A stretch of 64,000 bases of DNA from Thalassobaculum sp. OXR-137. Lineage in GTDB: Bacteria; Pseudomonadota; Alphaproteobacteria; Thalassobaculales; Thalassobaculaceae. Both the position numbers and the translations under genes were made by a program. The stretch spans positions 1,720,001-1,784,000 of the forward strand of contig NZ_CP139715.1 in assembly GCF_034377285.1 (NCBI RefSeq), given 5' to 3'. The notes below the pieces were generated by a model. It was not told where the DNA came from. It was given only the letters and a program-made list of their open reading frames with translations, and did no database searches. This document shows, one piece after another, positions 37,840-44,408 of the stretch (the first letter of the stretch is position 1; the number at the start of each line of letters is the position of its first letter).

Positions 37840-38913
37840 TCAGCTCGCCTCGGCCGGCTTGGTCAGGCTCTCGACCGTGGCCGTCAGGCGCTCCATCTCC
37901 CAGTCGGAGATCCGGAAGGCCCAGGTGTCGGTCTGCTGGCGGTGCTTCTCCGCCAGGGCGCGCGCCTCCTCGGGGGCGCCTGAGGGCACGGTGATGCGTA
38001 CCCGCATCCAGCGGACGGTGTCGGCCGCGCCGGCTTCTGTCGGCGCCTCGGCGAATTCCACCGTGTAGAGCACCCCGTCCTTGGTGGTGAACTCGGCATG
38101 GCCGAGCGCCGGATCGAAGGTCAGCCCGTCGGCGGTGCGCACGTCGTCGAACATCAGCTTGTCGAGCACGGTGGCGGCGTTGTTCACCGCGTACTGGGAG
38201 TCGATCTTGCGGCCTTCCGGCAGGTCGGCGATCCCGAAATCGCGCCCGTCCGCGCTCGCCCGCTCGAGCTCCATGCGGTCGCCCTGGGCGGTGACGATGG
38301 TCGCCCGCTGCACCGAGGCCTGGGGCACGTCCACCACCTCGCGGAACAGCCAGAGCGGTGCCTTGCCCTTCAGCTCCAGCGCGCCCTCGGCGAGGTAGGT
38401 CTGGGTTTCGTCGGTGCGGCGGACATAGACCATCGGCTCGCCGCCGGACAGGCTGTCCCGGCCCTTGCCCACATGCAGGTCGACCAGGGTTTCGCCGTCG
38501 GCCGTGGTGATGACCAGGCGGGAGGCCATGGATTCCGGCTGGGCGACGTCGCGCAGCTCCAACCGGTCGAACTTGCCCGGATCGGCGGTCTTGCGCTCGA
38601 TGAGTTCCAGCTGGCCGATGTCGAACAGCAGCTTGCGGACCGTGTCCGTGCGGGCCGGGTAGCCGTCGCGCTGCTGCAGGATCCAGCCGTCGCCGGTGCG
38701 CACGATGGAGATCATGCCGTCCGGGTTGTCCTCCGACCGGATGACCTCGATCTGGCGGACCTCGCCGGCGCGCCGTTCGAAGTCGGGATAGAGCACCTCG
38801 GCCGCAACTTCGGTGCGGATCTCGGACAGCCGGTCGACCATGGCCACCGACGCGCCGATGGCGGTCAGCAGGGTGAGCGATCCCAGCAGGGTGACGGTGC
38901 GTCGGGTGATCAT
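37840..38913 (-). CDS. DUF4340 domain protein (Gld-type ABC operon)
   Basis: This 357-residue protein has one N-terminal membrane segment (VTLLGSLTLLTAIGASVAMV) and a periplasmic region with repeated beta-rich DUF4340 units, for example IVRTGDGWILQQRDGYPARTD. DUF4340 proteins follow GldG-like genes in many bacteria, and their role is unknown. It starts ten bases after the gldG-like gene and is the last gene of the operon. Confidence 0.85.
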   Translation of the reverse strand: MITRRTVTLLGSLTLLTAIGASVAMVDRLSEIRTEVAAEVLYPDFERRAGEVRQIEVIRSEDNPDGMISIVRTGDGWILQQRDGYPARTDTVRKLLFDIGQLELIERKTADPGKFDRLELRDVAQPESMASRLVITTADGETLVDLHVGKGRDSLSGGEPMVYVRRTDETQTYLAEGALELKGKAPLWLFREVVDVPQASVQRATIVTAQGDRMELERASADGRDFGIADLPEGRKIDSQYAVNNAATVLDKLMFDDVRTADGLTFDPALGHAEFTTKDGVLYTVEFAEAPTEAGAADTVRWMRVRITVPSGAPEEARALAEKHRQQTDTWAFRISDWEMERLTATVESLTKPAEAS

Positions 38914-38923
38914 CGCAGCCTCC

Positions 38924-40912
38924 TCACGCGCCGGCGTCGGCGGTTTCGATCCGCCGCCGGCGCCGCCGTGCGCGGATGACGGACAGGACGAGGGCGAACA
39001 GCGCCACCAGGATCGGCATCAGCGCGATATTGACGAACTGCAGCTCGCGCTCCAGCCGCTCCACGTCGGAGCGCAGGGACGCCTGCACCCCGCGCAGCTC
39101 GCTGCGGATCCGCAGCACGTCGCCCTGAAGCTGGCGCATGGTGGCCTGCTCCTCTTCGCTCAGCACCACCGGTCCGCCGGTGGCGCCGTTGCGTTCGCGC
39201 AGGCTGCGCAGCTTCTTCTGGGTCTCGTCCAGGGTCTGGCGCAGTTCCTGCTCCTTCGCCTGGTAGGTGCGATCGGCCTCGCGCTTCAGCGTCTCCATGA
39301 CCTCGAACGGCCGGTAGGTGCTGCCCTGGCCGCGCAGGTCGAGCAGCGCCGAGGAGCCGGTCATGGCGTCGAGCACGTTGGCGACGAAATCGCCGTTGCC
39401 CGCCCCCGGGATCGCCACCCGCTGGCCCTGGAAGTTCTGGTAGGTCACCCAGTACCGGTCGTCCAGCAGGTCGGTATCGGCGACCACGACCACGTCGATC
39501 GGTCCGTCCGATTTGTCGCGGACCACGTCGAAATCGTGGCGCAGCTCCGGATTGCCGCCCTCGATCGCCTCGGGCTGACCGTTCGGGAAGGCGGTCGGCG
39601 CCTCTCCGGTCAGCGTTCCGGCGATGACGAAGCGTTCCGGCCCGGCCTGGTAATCGTTCAGGAGCGCCTGGGGGTTCGGGCGCTGGGTGGCCACCTGCTT
39701 GACGTCGAACAGGGTCGAGCCGGGGCTCGAGGTCAGCAGCGGCTCCAGGGTGAGGGGCGAGCCGTCCTTGAGCTTCAGGTAGCCCGCACTGGCCACGGCG
39801 ACGCTGTCCACCTGGGCGGTGATCGGCGAGTCCTTGTCCAGGTTCGGGCCGCGCAGCAGCAGCCAGGGCACATAGGTGACGTAGCCGGTGCCGGTCGCGT
39901 TGCCGACCCGGCGGCCGGCGAAGCGGTCGGCCACGACCTTGTCGGTCGGCATCTCCAGGCCCCAGGCGGCGAACATCTCGTCCAGGGCACTGGCCGCCCC
40001 GTTGACCGGGCCGTTCGCGGCCTGCCAGCCGTCGGCCTCGGAATAGGGGTCGACGAAGATCACCGCCTTGCCGCCACCGAGGATGTACTGGTCGATGGCG
40101 AAGCGGGTGCGCTCGGACAGCCGTTTGGGGTGGATGATCATCAGGATCGAGATGTCGTCGGGGATGACCTCGACCTCCTCGTCCAGCTCCTCGACCTCCA
40201 GGACCTCCTCGATCCGCGTGGTCACCAGGGCCGGCGGGAGATGTTCCGGCCGGCCGTTCTGGCCCATGCGCACGTCCATCGTGATCTTCTTGTTGCCGAG
40301 GATGCCGACCTTGCCGGTCGTCCCCTTCGACAGGGCGTAGATCATCTTGGTGATGTCGTATTCCAGGAACGCCTCGCGGTCCGGCTGGAAGAACGGCACC
40401 TGCTCCACGTCGTCGGTGGTGTTGGTGCCGACCAGGCCGAAGAACACGCTGCCGTCCACGCCTTCCAGCGAGACGGACTGAAGACCGAAGGACACCGCAC
40501 GGTCCTCCACCGGAGTGAAGGGCTCCGGATCGTAGATCTCCAGCACGATCTTGCCGGCCGAGCGGTCGGCGTATTCCTGCAGCATGTCGCGCACCCGGTC
40601 GGCATAGACGCCGTAGTTCGGGTACTGGCTGCCCAGACGCTTGGAGTAATAGAACCGCAGGGTGATCGGCTCCTCCACCTCGCTCAGCACGCGCTGGGTG
40701 GCGGGCGACAGGGAGTAGAGCTGGTCCTGGGTCAGGTCGACCCGGAAGCTGGTCATCGAGAAGGCGGCCAGCACGTTGATCGAGATGAACAGGCCGGCCA
40801 GCAGGAACAGGGCGATGGCGGTCAGCCGGCCCTGGGAGCCCGGTCGGGGCTCCCGCTTCTTGCGCTTGCGGGCGTGCTTTCCGGCGGGGGCGTCGACGGT
40901 TGCCATGGTCAT
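38924..40912 (-). CDS. GldG-like ABC transporter auxiliary protein
   Basis: This 662-residue protein has an N-terminal membrane helix (LTAIALFLLAGLFISINVLA), a large periplasmic region with VDLTQDQLYSLSPATQRVL and AIDQYILGGGKAVIFVDPY, a coiled coil near the end (RTLDETQKKLRSLRE-like and ELQFVNIAL) and a second membrane helix before a basic tail. These are the features of GldG-like (ABC-2, DUF4350) proteins. It overlaps the permease gene by four bases (ATGA). Confidence 0.88.
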   Translation of the reverse strand: MTMATVDAPAGKHARKRKKREPRPGSQGRLTAIALFLLAGLFISINVLAAFSMTSFRVDLTQDQLYSLSPATQRVLSEVEEPITLRFYYSKRLGSQYPNYGVYADRVRDMLQEYADRSAGKIVLEIYDPEPFTPVEDRAVSFGLQSVSLEGVDGSVFFGLVGTNTTDDVEQVPFFQPDREAFLEYDITKMIYALSKGTTGKVGILGNKKITMDVRMGQNGRPEHLPPALVTTRIEEVLEVEELDEEVEVIPDDISILMIIHPKRLSERTRFAIDQYILGGGKAVIFVDPYSEADGWQAANGPVNGAASALDEMFAAWGLEMPTDKVVADRFAGRRVGNATGTGYVTYVPWLLLRGPNLDKDSPITAQVDSVAVASAGYLKLKDGSPLTLEPLLTSSPGSTLFDVKQVATQRPNPQALLNDYQAGPERFVIAGTLTGEAPTAFPNGQPEAIEGGNPELRHDFDVVRDKSDGPIDVVVVADTDLLDDRYWVTYQNFQGQRVAIPGAGNGDFVANVLDAMTGSSALLDLRGQGSTYRPFEVMETLKREADRTYQAKEQELRQTLDETQKKLRSLRERNGATGGPVVLSEEEQATMRQLQGDVLRIRSELRGVQASLRSDVERLERELQFVNIALMPILVALFALVLSVIRARRRRRRIETADAGA

Positions 40913-41655
40913 TCCGCCTTCTTCAGGTCGACGATCAGCGCATTGGCGGCCAGCGCCAGGACGATCACGGAAGCGAAGAAGATCGCATCGCGCAGATCGA
41001 TGACGCCGCGGGCGATCGACTGGAAGTGGGTCAGGAAGCCGAAGCCGGCGACGATGTCGACCACGGTGTCCGGCAGGAAGGACCGGATCGCGTCCAGCAC
41101 GACGTTGGAGCCGGCGAGAGTGAAGACGAACAGGACGGCCGTCGTCACCACGAAGGCGATGACCTGGTTCTTGGTGGTGGCCGAGATCATCGAGCCGACC
41201 GCCAGGAAGGCCCCCGCCATCAGCAGGCTGCCGATATAGGAGGCGGCGATCACCCCGTTATCCGGGTTGCCGAGCTCGTTGACCGTGATCCACAGCGGGA
41301 AGGTGAGCGCCAGGGCGATGCCGGTGAAGATCCAGGCGGCCAGGTATTTGCCGACCACCGCCTCGATCATGGTCACCGGCAGGGTCAGGAACAGCTCGAT
41401 CGTGCCGGTCCGCCGCTCCTCCGCCCACAGCCGCATGGACAGCGCGGGGACCAGGAACAGGTAGAGCCACGGATGGAAGGTGAAGAACGGCTGCAGGTCG
41501 GCCTGACCGCGCCCCATCCAGCCGCCGACGAAGAAGGTCATCGCGCCGGCGAGGATCAGGAAGATGACGATGAAGATATAGGCGAGCGGCGTGGCGAAGT
41601 AGGCCTTCAGCTCTCGCGCCGTCACCAGCCAGACATTGCGCCCGGTCCTAGACAT
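40909..41655 (-). CDS. GldF-like ABC-2 permease
   Basis: This 248-residue protein has six hydrophobic segments and the ABC-2 permease pattern (YIFIVIFLILAGAMTFFVGG, RRTGTIELFLTLPVTMIEAV, then GSNVVLDAIRSFLP). GldF permeases pair with GldA ATPases. In Bacteroidetes they are needed for gliding motility, while the role in proteobacteria is unknown. Its start overlaps the stop of the ATPase gene by eight bases. Confidence 0.88.
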   Translation of the reverse strand: MSRTGRNVWLVTARELKAYFATPLAYIFIVIFLILAGAMTFFVGGWMGRGQADLQPFFTFHPWLYLFLVPALSMRLWAEERRTGTIELFLTLPVTMIEAVVGKYLAAWIFTGIALALTFPLWITVNELGNPDNGVIAASYIGSLLMAGAFLAVGSMISATTKNQVIAFVVTTAVLFVFTLAGSNVVLDAIRSFLPDTVVDIVAGFGFLTHFQSIARGVIDLRDAIFFASVIVLALAANALIVDLKKAE

Positions 41656-42385
41656 TGGCCGTCACCTCGCGGAATACGTCGTCCAGATTGCCGCTGGCGG
41701 AGCGGCCGCGCAGGTCGGCGGGGGTGCCGTCGGCGACGATCCGCCCGCGGGCGATGATCACCGCGCGGGTACACACCGCGTCGACCTCTTCCAGGATGTG
41801 GGTGGAGATCACGATCGCCTTGGTGGCGGCCATCTCCTGGATCAGCTTGCGGACCTCGAACTTCTGGTTCGGGTCGAGGCCGTCGGTCGGCTCGTCCAGG
41901 ATCAGCACCGGCGGGTTGTGCAGCAGCGCCTGGGCCAGGCCGACCCGGCGCTTGAAGCCTTTGGACAGGGTCTCGATCGGCTGGTGCGCCACTTCGCGGA
42001 GCTGCGTCTTGGCCATGGCCGCCTCCACATGCTCCCGGCGCTCCGCCCCGTCGAAGCCGCGGACGGCGCCGATGAAGTCGAGGAATGCGATGACGGTCAT
42101 GTCGGGATAGGCCGGCGCCCCTTCCGGCAGGTAGCCGATGGCACTCTTGGCGGCGATGGGATCGCTCAGAACGTTGTGGCCGCAGATGACCGCGGTGCCG
42201 GCATCCGGCGCCAGGAAGCCGCAGATCATTTTCATGGTCGTCGATTTTCCGGCGCCGTTCGGGCCGAGAAATCCGAGGACCTCCCCCTGTTCCAACTCGA
42301 AGCTGAGCCCGTCGACCGCGGTCTTTCGGGCATTGGCCGGTCCGAAACTCTTACTCAGTCCGCGCACGGACAATGCTGTCGTCAT
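41648..42385 (-). CDS. GldA-like ABC transporter ATP-binding protein
   Basis: This 245-residue ATPase has Walker A GPNGAGKSTTMK, the signature LSKGFKRRVGLAQAL, Walker B VLILDEPTDGLDP and the switch His in STHILEE. It is the first gene of the gldA-F-G-DUF4340 operon, so the complex is likely complete. The substrate is unknown. It is divergent from the adenylate cyclase gene. Confidence 0.93.
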   Translation of the reverse strand: MTTALSVRGLSKSFGPANARKTAVDGLSFELEQGEVLGFLGPNGAGKSTTMKMICGFLAPDAGTAVICGHNVLSDPIAAKSAIGYLPEGAPAYPDMTVIAFLDFIGAVRGFDGAERREHVEAAMAKTQLREVAHQPIETLSKGFKRRVGLAQALLHNPPVLILDEPTDGLDPNQKFEVRKLIQEMAATKAIVISTHILEEVDAVCTRAVIIARGRIVADGTPADLRGRSASGNLDDVFREVTANV

Positions 42386-42498
42386 GGGACGCTCATTTGG
42401 TGTGCGTGACGTAACCGTTGGTTGGGTTCGTCATTTATCGAAATTACAGCGAAATTCAAGACATTAGGCTATTGTCCATGCGTGACGGGAGCAGAGCG

Positions 42499-44223
42499 AT
42501 GACGGCAGTCGACACGCAGCGGCGGCTGAACCGCCCGGAACGGCGGATCTCCTGGTCGCCGATCATCTCCCGTCTCCGTCTTTATACCGGTCTGGTGCTG
42601 TTCACTTACGTGAGCGCACACTTGGTTAATCATGTGGCGGGATTGTGGTCGATCGCCGCGCTGGATGCCGGGCTCGCCCTGATCGAGGGTGTGGTGCGCA
42701 CCCAGGCCGTATCGATCCTGCTCTACGGCAGCATCCTGCTGCACATGCTGATCGCCCTGCGGGCGATCTATTACCGCGACTCCCTGAAGGCGATGGCGGT
42801 GCCCGAGGTCGTTCAGCTCGCGCTGGGCCTGGCGATCCCGCTGCTGATCCTGCGCCACGTGCTGAGCAACCGGCTGATGCACGAGCTCTACGGGCTGGAC
42901 GACGACCATACCTGGGTGCTGCTGAATCTCTGGGTGTTCGATCCGGTGGGCGCGCTGAACCAGTCGGCGGCCGTGCTGGTCGCCTGGGGGCATGGCTGCA
43001 CCGGCCTGCACCTGTGGCTGCGCTATGCATCCTGGTACGACCGGGCGAAGCCGTGGCTGCTGTCGGCCGCGGTGCTGCTGCCGGCCCTGTCGCTCGCCGG
43101 CTTCGTCGCGGCCGGGATGACCGTGGCGGACCTGACGGCCACGCCGGGATGGCTGCCGCTGGCGATCCGGTCCGCAAACCTGCCCGACAACGAGACCATC
43201 GCCCTGTGGATCCAGCGGTTCGACGAGATCAAGGCCGGGTATGCGGTGGTGGTGGTCGCGGCCTTCGCCGCCCGCTGGATGCGCATGGCGTTGCACCGGC
43301 GCAGCCAGGGGGTGCGGGTAGGCTACGGCGCCGGTCGCTCCGTGCAGGCGATCCGGGGCATGACCCTGCTGGATGTCAGCCGGATGCACGGGATTCCCCA
43401 CGCCTCGGTCTGTGGCGGTCGCGGGCGCTGCTCGACCTGCCGGGTGCGGGTGTCGCGCGGGCTGGAGAATCTGCCCCCGCCCGACGATGCGGAGGCCAAG
43501 GTGCTGCACCGGATCTCGGCGGCGCCGAACGTGCGGCTGGCCTGCCAGACGCGCGTGGTCGAGGATCTGGAGATCACGCCGTTGCTTCCGCCGCACAATA
43601 CCGGCATGGCGGAAACCCGCGGCGGGCCGAGCTATCTGCAGGGGCGCGAGCTGGAGATCGCGGTGCTGTTCGCCGATATCCGCGGCTTCACCACCTTGTC
43701 GGAGGAGCGGCTGCCCTATGACGTGGTGTTCATCCTGAACCGGTACTTCGCCGAGATGGGGGCTGCGATCGAGGGGGCCGGCGGACGGATCGACAAATTC
43801 ATCGGCGACGGGATCATGGCCCTGTTTGGCGTGAACGGCGACCCGGAGGAGGGCGCGCGCCAGGCGGTGGCGGCGGCGCGGGAGATGGCGCGGCGGCTCG
43901 TGGACCTGAACGAGTCCCTGGCCGGCGACCTGGAGGCGCCCCTGCGGATCGGCATCGGCCTGCATCTGGGTCCGGCCATCGTCGGCGAGATGGGCTACGG
44001 GCGGGTGCGCGGGGTGACGGCGGTGGGCGACACGGTGAACACCGCCAGCCGGCTGGAGTCCCTGACCAAGGAATTCGGCGCGCAGCTCATCGTGTCGGAC
44101 GCGCTGGCGCGGGCCTCAGGGGTTGATTTCAGCCGCTACCCGAGCCATGAGATCGAGGTGAGGGGCCGAGACCAGGCGATGGCGATCCGGGTGATCGCCG
44201 ATGCCACCGAGGTGGGGGTGTAG
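42499..44223 (+). CDS. Membrane-anchored ferredoxin-adenylate cyclase
   Basis: This 574-residue protein has three parts. Residues ~15-270 are a six-helix membrane domain with paired histidines (YVSAHLVNH, LLHML, WGHGCTGLHLW) that look like heme-b ligands of succinate dehydrogenase-type anchors. Residues ~280-355 are a [2Fe-2S] ferredoxin domain, C-x5-C-x2-C ... C (Cys305, Cys311, Cys314, Cys349). The C-terminus is a class III cyclase with metal-binding Asp393 (FADIRGFT) and Asp437 (FIGDGIMAL), and DTVNTASR as in adenylate cyclases. It would make cyclic AMP in response to redox state. ATG 42499 follows GGGAG. Confidence 0.88.
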   Translation: MTAVDTQRRLNRPERRISWSPIISRLRLYTGLVLFTYVSAHLVNHVAGLWSIAALDAGLALIEGVVRTQAVSILLYGSILLHMLIALRAIYYRDSLKAMAVPEVVQLALGLAIPLLILRHVLSNRLMHELYGLDDDHTWVLLNLWVFDPVGALNQSAAVLVAWGHGCTGLHLWLRYASWYDRAKPWLLSAAVLLPALSLAGFVAAGMTVADLTATPGWLPLAIRSANLPDNETIALWIQRFDEIKAGYAVVVVAAFAARWMRMALHRRSQGVRVGYGAGRSVQAIRGMTLLDVSRMHGIPHASVCGGRGRCSTCRVRVSRGLENLPPPDDAEAKVLHRISAAPNVRLACQTRVVEDLEITPLLPPHNTGMAETRGGPSYLQGRELEIAVLFADIRGFTTLSEERLPYDVVFILNRYFAEMGAAIEGAGGRIDKFIGDGIMALFGVNGDPEEGARQAVAAAREMARRLVDLNESLAGDLEAPLRIGIGLHLGPAIVGEMGYGRVRGVTAVGDTVNTASRLESLTKEFGAQLIVSDALARASGVDFSRYPSHEIEVRGRDQAMAIRVIADATEVGV

Positions 44224-44256: not shown

Positions 44257-44408
44257 CGGCCCTTCGACACGCTCCCGGATCAAGTCCGGGTGCTGCTAAG
44301 GGCGAGGTCTTTAGGTCAGGGCGAGGTCTTTAGGTCAGGGCGAGGTCTCTAGGAAGGATAACTTTGACCTCGTCCTGAGCAGCCCCGGAGGGGCGTGTCG
44401 AAGGGCCG
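44257..44408. repeat. Inverted-repeat pair around short tandem repeats
   Basis: CGGCCCTTCGACACGC (44257-44272) and its perfect inverse (44393-44408) form a 16-bp inverted repeat. Between them, a 19-bp unit, GGGCGAGGTCTTTAGGTCA, occurs 2.8 times at 44300-44352. Confidence 0.85.

Follow-up and report, generated by a model that had tools for sequence, protein, structure and literature searches.

Among the closest described systems is the adenylate cyclase CyaC (SMc01818) of S. meliloti, for which the relevant part of Klein et al. (2023, PMC10463352) describes a hexahelical membrane anchor with two hemes b, whose arrangement is likely that of diheme succinate dehydrogenases, marks a [2Fe-2S] cluster in the scheme of the protein and reports activation of the enzyme after oxidation by quinones. 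According to the same text, which cites Wissig et al. (2019) on this point, ubiquinone oxidises or reduces the CyaC hemes and affects the cyclase activity in this way; excerpts of PMC9552081 and PMC13259868 likewise cite the 2019 work on CyaC. The gene is preceded by a TetR gene and adjoined by a LysR gene in S. meliloti, again as given in that part of PMC10463352. At the level of families, Beltz et al. (2016, eLife, PMC4821796) defined ferredoxin-associated class IIIb adenylate cyclases as cluster 1, whose members, in the sections of that article devoted to them, show the order anchor, ferredoxin and cyclase, four intramembrane histidines and an anchor akin to the cytochrome b subunits of succinate:quinone and quinol:fumarate reductases (SQR/QFR).

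We analysed a window of 64,000 nucleotides from the genome of Thalassobaculum sp. OXR-137 (5.65 Mb in 3 contigs), which contains a complete gene for a putative CyaC-type redox adenylate cyclase on the forward strand (42499..44223, including the stop codon), as judged from the open reading frame, Pfam matches and relatives. The frame is open from 42418 to 44223 (601 codons), and a TTG codon at 42418 would give a protein of 601 amino acids; the ATG codon at 42499 yields 574 amino acids and matches the gene start in the 90% identical locus of Thalassobaculum litoreum DSM 18839 (L001). Two Pfam models pass their cut-offs on the 574-amino acid protein, namely Fer2 (PF00111, E 3.3e-9) and Guanylate_cyc (PF00211, E 8.8e-20), and the N-terminal part gave no Pfam domain match. 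Taken together, Pfam and AlphaFold models place a six-helix membrane (6TM) anchor, then a ferredoxin domain and then a class III cyclase in one chain, as the first-pass annotation had claimed for this single open reading frame. The structure prediction of the full protein that it had also proposed indeed returned all three parts, the anchor being helical (mean pLDDT 83.8, pTM 0.54); because the pTM value is low, the placement of the domains relative to each other is not fixed by this model.

By its published description, CyaC of S. meliloti has the same architecture as the window protein, a likeness drawn at the level of domains, and the members of cluster 1 of Beltz et al. (e.g., Q132R4 of Rhodopseudomonas palustris) are alike as well, with no difference apparent from the description alone. 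The window protein is therefore an additional member of the already described CyaC-type enzymes. The earlier suggestion of a little-described sensor has to be given up, since the cluster was defined in 2016 (PMC4821796) and CyaC is reported, in the text available for PMC10463352, to contain diheme B and a [2Fe-2S] cluster and to respond to quinones.

Conservation was assessed in an alignment of 81 sequences, consisting of the window protein and 80 relatives, with at least 80 relatives existing and the family being larger. Two of the rows (L068 and L073) had one stop each inside the match, which was removed before alignment, and both were retained; further alignments covered 45 of the 80 loci (A1), 29 of the 80 together with L092 and L093 (A2), and 53 of the 80 (A3).

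The membrane anchor comprises residues 21–269 (42559..43305, forward strand) and was modelled separately with high confidence (AlphaFold, mean pLDDT 95.4, pTM 0.89). Its long helices span residues 21–49, 69–92, 101–131, 149–174, 180–212 and 231–269 in protein numbering, which equals the model numbering plus 17. A simple hydropathy analysis marks only three to four membrane segments, and the count of six is taken from the AlphaFold anchor model. We compared this model with known structures using VIA-align, which re-aligns Foldseek candidates only, and obtained the best match with chain C of the fumarate reductase of Wolinella (2bs3_C; Z 15.0, 201 residues, rmsd 3.5, 14% identity). The four Wolinella entries reached Z values of 14.4–15.0, followed by D. 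gigas 5xmj_C (Z 14.2) and the Chloroflexus succinate dehydrogenase 9lay_C, whose Z of 12.2 lies below the value of about 13 that VIA-align states to be reachable by chance for helical bundles. All of the top six rows are anchors of fumarate reductases or succinate dehydrogenases and stand far above the remainder, which after the diheme anchors begins with a mycobacterial succinate dehydrogenase (Z 7.4) and cytochrome b561 (Z 7.0). Foldseek alone detected the similarity to 5xmj_C weakly (E 2.3, probability 0.66, rank 18) and gave no match at E ≤ 0.001 for the anchor model; used with the full model, it listed only cyclase structures among the best 50 of 742 matches. On the sequence level, an anchor profile searched against the PDB sequences found no relative (a single chance match at E 1), and the Pfam model Sdh_cyt was reached faintly by two of 54 anchors (best E 0.0071). 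As far as the model goes, the anchor shows the SQR/QFR diheme cytochrome b fold. Compared with the Wolinella chain C, which it resembles in predicted fold, the window protein has one more long helix, which leads to the ferredoxin and cyclase parts.

Heme ligands of fumarate reductase sit in the first four long helices. In the anchor model, the corresponding helices 1 to 4 each contain one histidine that is invariant in the alignment (81/81 each), namely H41 (42619..42621), H82 (42742..42744), H120 (42856..42858) and H165 (42991..42993), all on the forward strand, which we predict to be heme b ligands and presume by homology to be paired as H41/H120 and H82/H165. Together with the predicted fold, this set suggests that the anchor probably binds two b hemes. 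The six-helix cytochrome b-like anchor postulated in the first-pass annotation is thus upheld by fold and conservation, and not by hydropathy alone. It had also been called histidine-rich, of which the four invariant histidines remain; because the other membrane histidines vary (H128 in 36/81, H171 in 62/81, H137 in 5/81, and H266 in about 6%), these four are set apart and richness by itself means little. Position 137 (42907–42909) is occupied by histidine in the window protein and by tyrosine in 76 of the 81 sequences. A further histidine, H45 (42631–42633), occurs in 80 of the 81 cyclase-linked anchors; because it is missing from the two stand-alone 6TM-ferredoxin modules that span the position (see below), it is probably no heme ligand. 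H41 is also present in both stand-alone modules that cover its position.

The ferredoxin domain (43330..43557, forward strand) carries the complete [2Fe-2S] cluster motif C305-x5-C311-x2-C314-x34-C349 in addition to its Fer2 match, and all four cysteines are invariant (81/81), which bears out the full cluster motif noted before. The class III nucleotidyl cyclase catalytic domain follows at 43654..44178 on the same strand and is likewise intact, as had been proposed, with D393, K433, D437, T507, N514 and R518 each conserved in 81 of 81 sequences. We take K433 and T507 to serve ATP recognition and D393 and D437 to serve metal binding, with N514 and R518 completing the class IIIb set. The top Foldseek match of the cyclase part was the class III adenylyl cyclase 1wc1 (TMt 0.83, 34% identity), which is the soluble CyaC of S. 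platensis; this enzyme is alike in the catalytic fold and otherwise shares only its name with the CyaC-type proteins, and its solved chain consists of the catalytic domain alone.

The gene neighbourhood in the window differs from that of cyaC in S. meliloti with its TetR and LysR genes. Divergent from the cyclase gene lies an ABC transporter set on the reverse strand (37840–42385) coding for an ATPase, a permease, an auxiliary protein and a DUF4340 protein, and cysS is convergent with the cyclase gene on the other side. TetR and LysR genes are not immediate neighbours of the window gene, and no clear TetR and LysR pair was seen in 12 loci inspected by eye on their ORF starts, which may nonetheless contain one. 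Among the loci of the 80 relatives, with at most 6 kb considered on each side, the genes of the ABC transporter set occur in 22 to 32, depending on the gene, and cysS, gltX and nadE in three, all of these counts being lower bounds as the flank lengths differ. The proximity of the ABC set may be plain synteny, and we give it no functional weight. In contrast to the anchor of a quinol:fumarate reductase, the window gene is not directly flanked by genes for flavoprotein or iron-sulfur subunits. An assignment as an anchor subunit of succinate dehydrogenase or fumarate reductase was considered and rejected, the neighbours being the ABC transporter genes and cysS. Between the cyclase gene and cysS lies a tandem repeat of 19 bases at 44299–44353 (2.9 copies, 97% alike).

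Conservation and predicted fold support a redox-controlled adenylate cyclase with a heme anchor and a [2Fe-2S] domain as the best reading of this protein. We are confident that it is a membrane protein of the CyaC type, namely a class IIIb adenylate cyclase with a predicted diheme anchor, probable redox control by the quinone pool and cAMP as output. The first-pass annotation had regarded the electron route from quinone via heme and iron-sulfur cluster to the cyclase as not established, which no longer applies to the quinone control, since this is reported for CyaC in the corresponding part of PMC10463352, and still applies to the iron-sulfur step alone. By analogy with CyaC, we infer the same behaviour for the window protein, including the direction of the response. 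Two b hemes held between H41/H120 and H82/H165 would trade electrons with the ubiquinone pool, and a change in the hemes would be relayed via helix 6 and the [2Fe-2S] domain to a homodimeric cyclase, such that an oxidised ubiquinone pool would lead to a higher cAMP output. CRP-type regulators of the cell would then respond to cAMP; the host genome carries nine places for cNMP-binding proteins. Any electron flow through the [2Fe-2S] cluster is a step that we infer within this scheme. It is very likely that the enzyme senses, by means of its hemes and iron-sulfur cluster, how heavily the respiratory chain is loaded with electrons and responds with cyclic AMP.

Class III cyclases in general are regulated via helical linkers, and the ferredoxin domain might accordingly transmit the signal structurally, its cluster accepting no electrons, with the hemes sensing quinone and control being exerted by helix movement only. 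This variant, which does not exclude the reading given above, would agree with the attribution of the quinone effect on CyaC to the hemes rather than the cluster in the pertinent text of PMC10463352. We consider it rather unlikely, because the invariance of the cluster cysteines, all four of which are also present in three stand-alone modules without a cyclase, suggests a working cluster. It is also conceivable that the anchor chiefly senses another ligand instead of quinone, either oxygen, nitric oxide or CO at the heme, or a lipid, given that heme is able to bind gases and that a role as lipid receptor is reported for other 6TM anchors of cyclases. The four invariant histidines, however, suit two six-coordinate hemes, the predicted fold is that of quinone-reactive anchors and the relative CyaC is reported to respond to quinones, which makes sensing of another ligand improbable and leaves redox control by the quinone pool as the preferred reading.

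The 6TM-ferredoxin unit was found in 111 of 385 sampled alphaproteobacterial genomes, including that of the window (E ≤ 1e-45), and a sample of the phylum gave matches in 60 of 398 genomes at 1e-15. Among the rows listed for these 60, 45 match over almost all of the unit, and the other 15 lie mostly in the ferredoxin part. At most five candidates were scored per genome in the class and phylum samples, and at most the three best in one further scan, so that further copies or stand-alone genes may exist in these genomes. The host genome itself has 11 class III cyclase matches and one 6TM-ferredoxin place among the five of 34 candidates that were scored. Of 72,556 plasmid records, 166 contain a place where the match extends over 80% or more of the protein; the best 40 of these 166, from Rhizobium and one Sinorhizobium, carry relatives with 44–48% identity over 91–98% of its length. 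The count of 111 in 385 genomes shows how common the sensor module is, and regulation of cAMP by the respiratory chain may accordingly be widespread in the class.

The module also occurs in stand-alone genes followed by a gene for an MscS-type protein. The class sample gave two such genes, in the genomes G154 (374 amino acids; both genes at L155:3767-7095) and G060 (386 amino acids; L156:6920-10008), and a family search added a third in G746 (L161:2-2467, cut at the contig end). In all three cases the downstream MscS-type gene overlaps the stand-alone module by 4 nt if translation of the MscS frame begins at its earliest start codon; alternative starts lie a few bases downstream. The MscS-type identity was assigned by Pfam MS_channel models in the partners of G154 and G060, which are 35% identical over 608 amino acids and alike outside the channel part too; the partner of G746 is 37% identical to that of G060 over 449 amino acids. 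Within the stretch that each of them covers, the stand-alone modules keep the membrane histidines and the cluster cysteines. Other short frames of the class sample were not counted as stand-alone: a cyclase piece adjoins those in G079 and G348, and those in G217 and G287 either reach a contig end or stop short of it by about 130 bases at most. In L154 (G348) and L157 (G079), the 6TM-ferredoxin and cyclase parts are located in separate adjacent frames, which may be a true split or result from a frameshift or from an error in the assembly.

The sample is small and, because G060 and G746 share one family and G154 belongs to another, support for the pairing comes from two families. Among 100 sampled genomes of the G154 family, matches to the 6TM-ferredoxin protein of G154 occur in 11, and of these G154 alone is without a long cyclase-sized frame; G832 of the same genus has a frame of 584 amino acids, so the pairing is not general even among relatives. 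In the family of G060, 15 of 39 genomes match, of which G060 and G746 have stand-alone modules and G744 shows a partial match. An order-wide search, in which the genomes were almost entirely those already covered, yielded no further stand-alone module. Searching the plasmids with the stand-alone protein gave seven records, the two annotated ones being cyclases, and the channel protein of G060 matched 365 plasmid records, none of them over 80% of its length. Among the best open-access literature matches, we found no description of a pairing of MscS, ferredoxin and heme proteins, and we do not claim its absence from print.

The occurrence of 6TM-ferredoxin genes without a cyclase might be taken to indicate that the window protein is primarily a redox enzyme, whose anchor and ferredoxin hand electrons to a soluble partner with the cyclase as a side reporter, but this is highly improbable, as such genes are rare (two of the 111 module-bearing genomes and one from the family search) and each of them precedes an MscS-type channel gene rather than one for a redox enzyme. 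Next to the CyaC-type adenylate cyclase, the stand-alone modules with their MscS-type genes hint at a second output of the redox module, i.e., a redox-controlled channel. We tentatively suggest that anchor and ferredoxin together form a portable quinone-reading module, which drives a cyclase in nearly all of the sampled alphaproteobacteria that possess it and might, in a few, gate a co-made MscS-type channel according to the respiratory redox state. Two other combinations of these domains were encountered. A protein of 503 amino acids in G258 (L159:5211-6722) joins CDGSH, Fer2, class III cyclase and Rieske domains, with three kinds of iron-sulfur domain surrounding a single cyclase, and a Fer2-cyclase protein of 333 amino acids in G066 (L158:4508-5509) has no membrane anchor.
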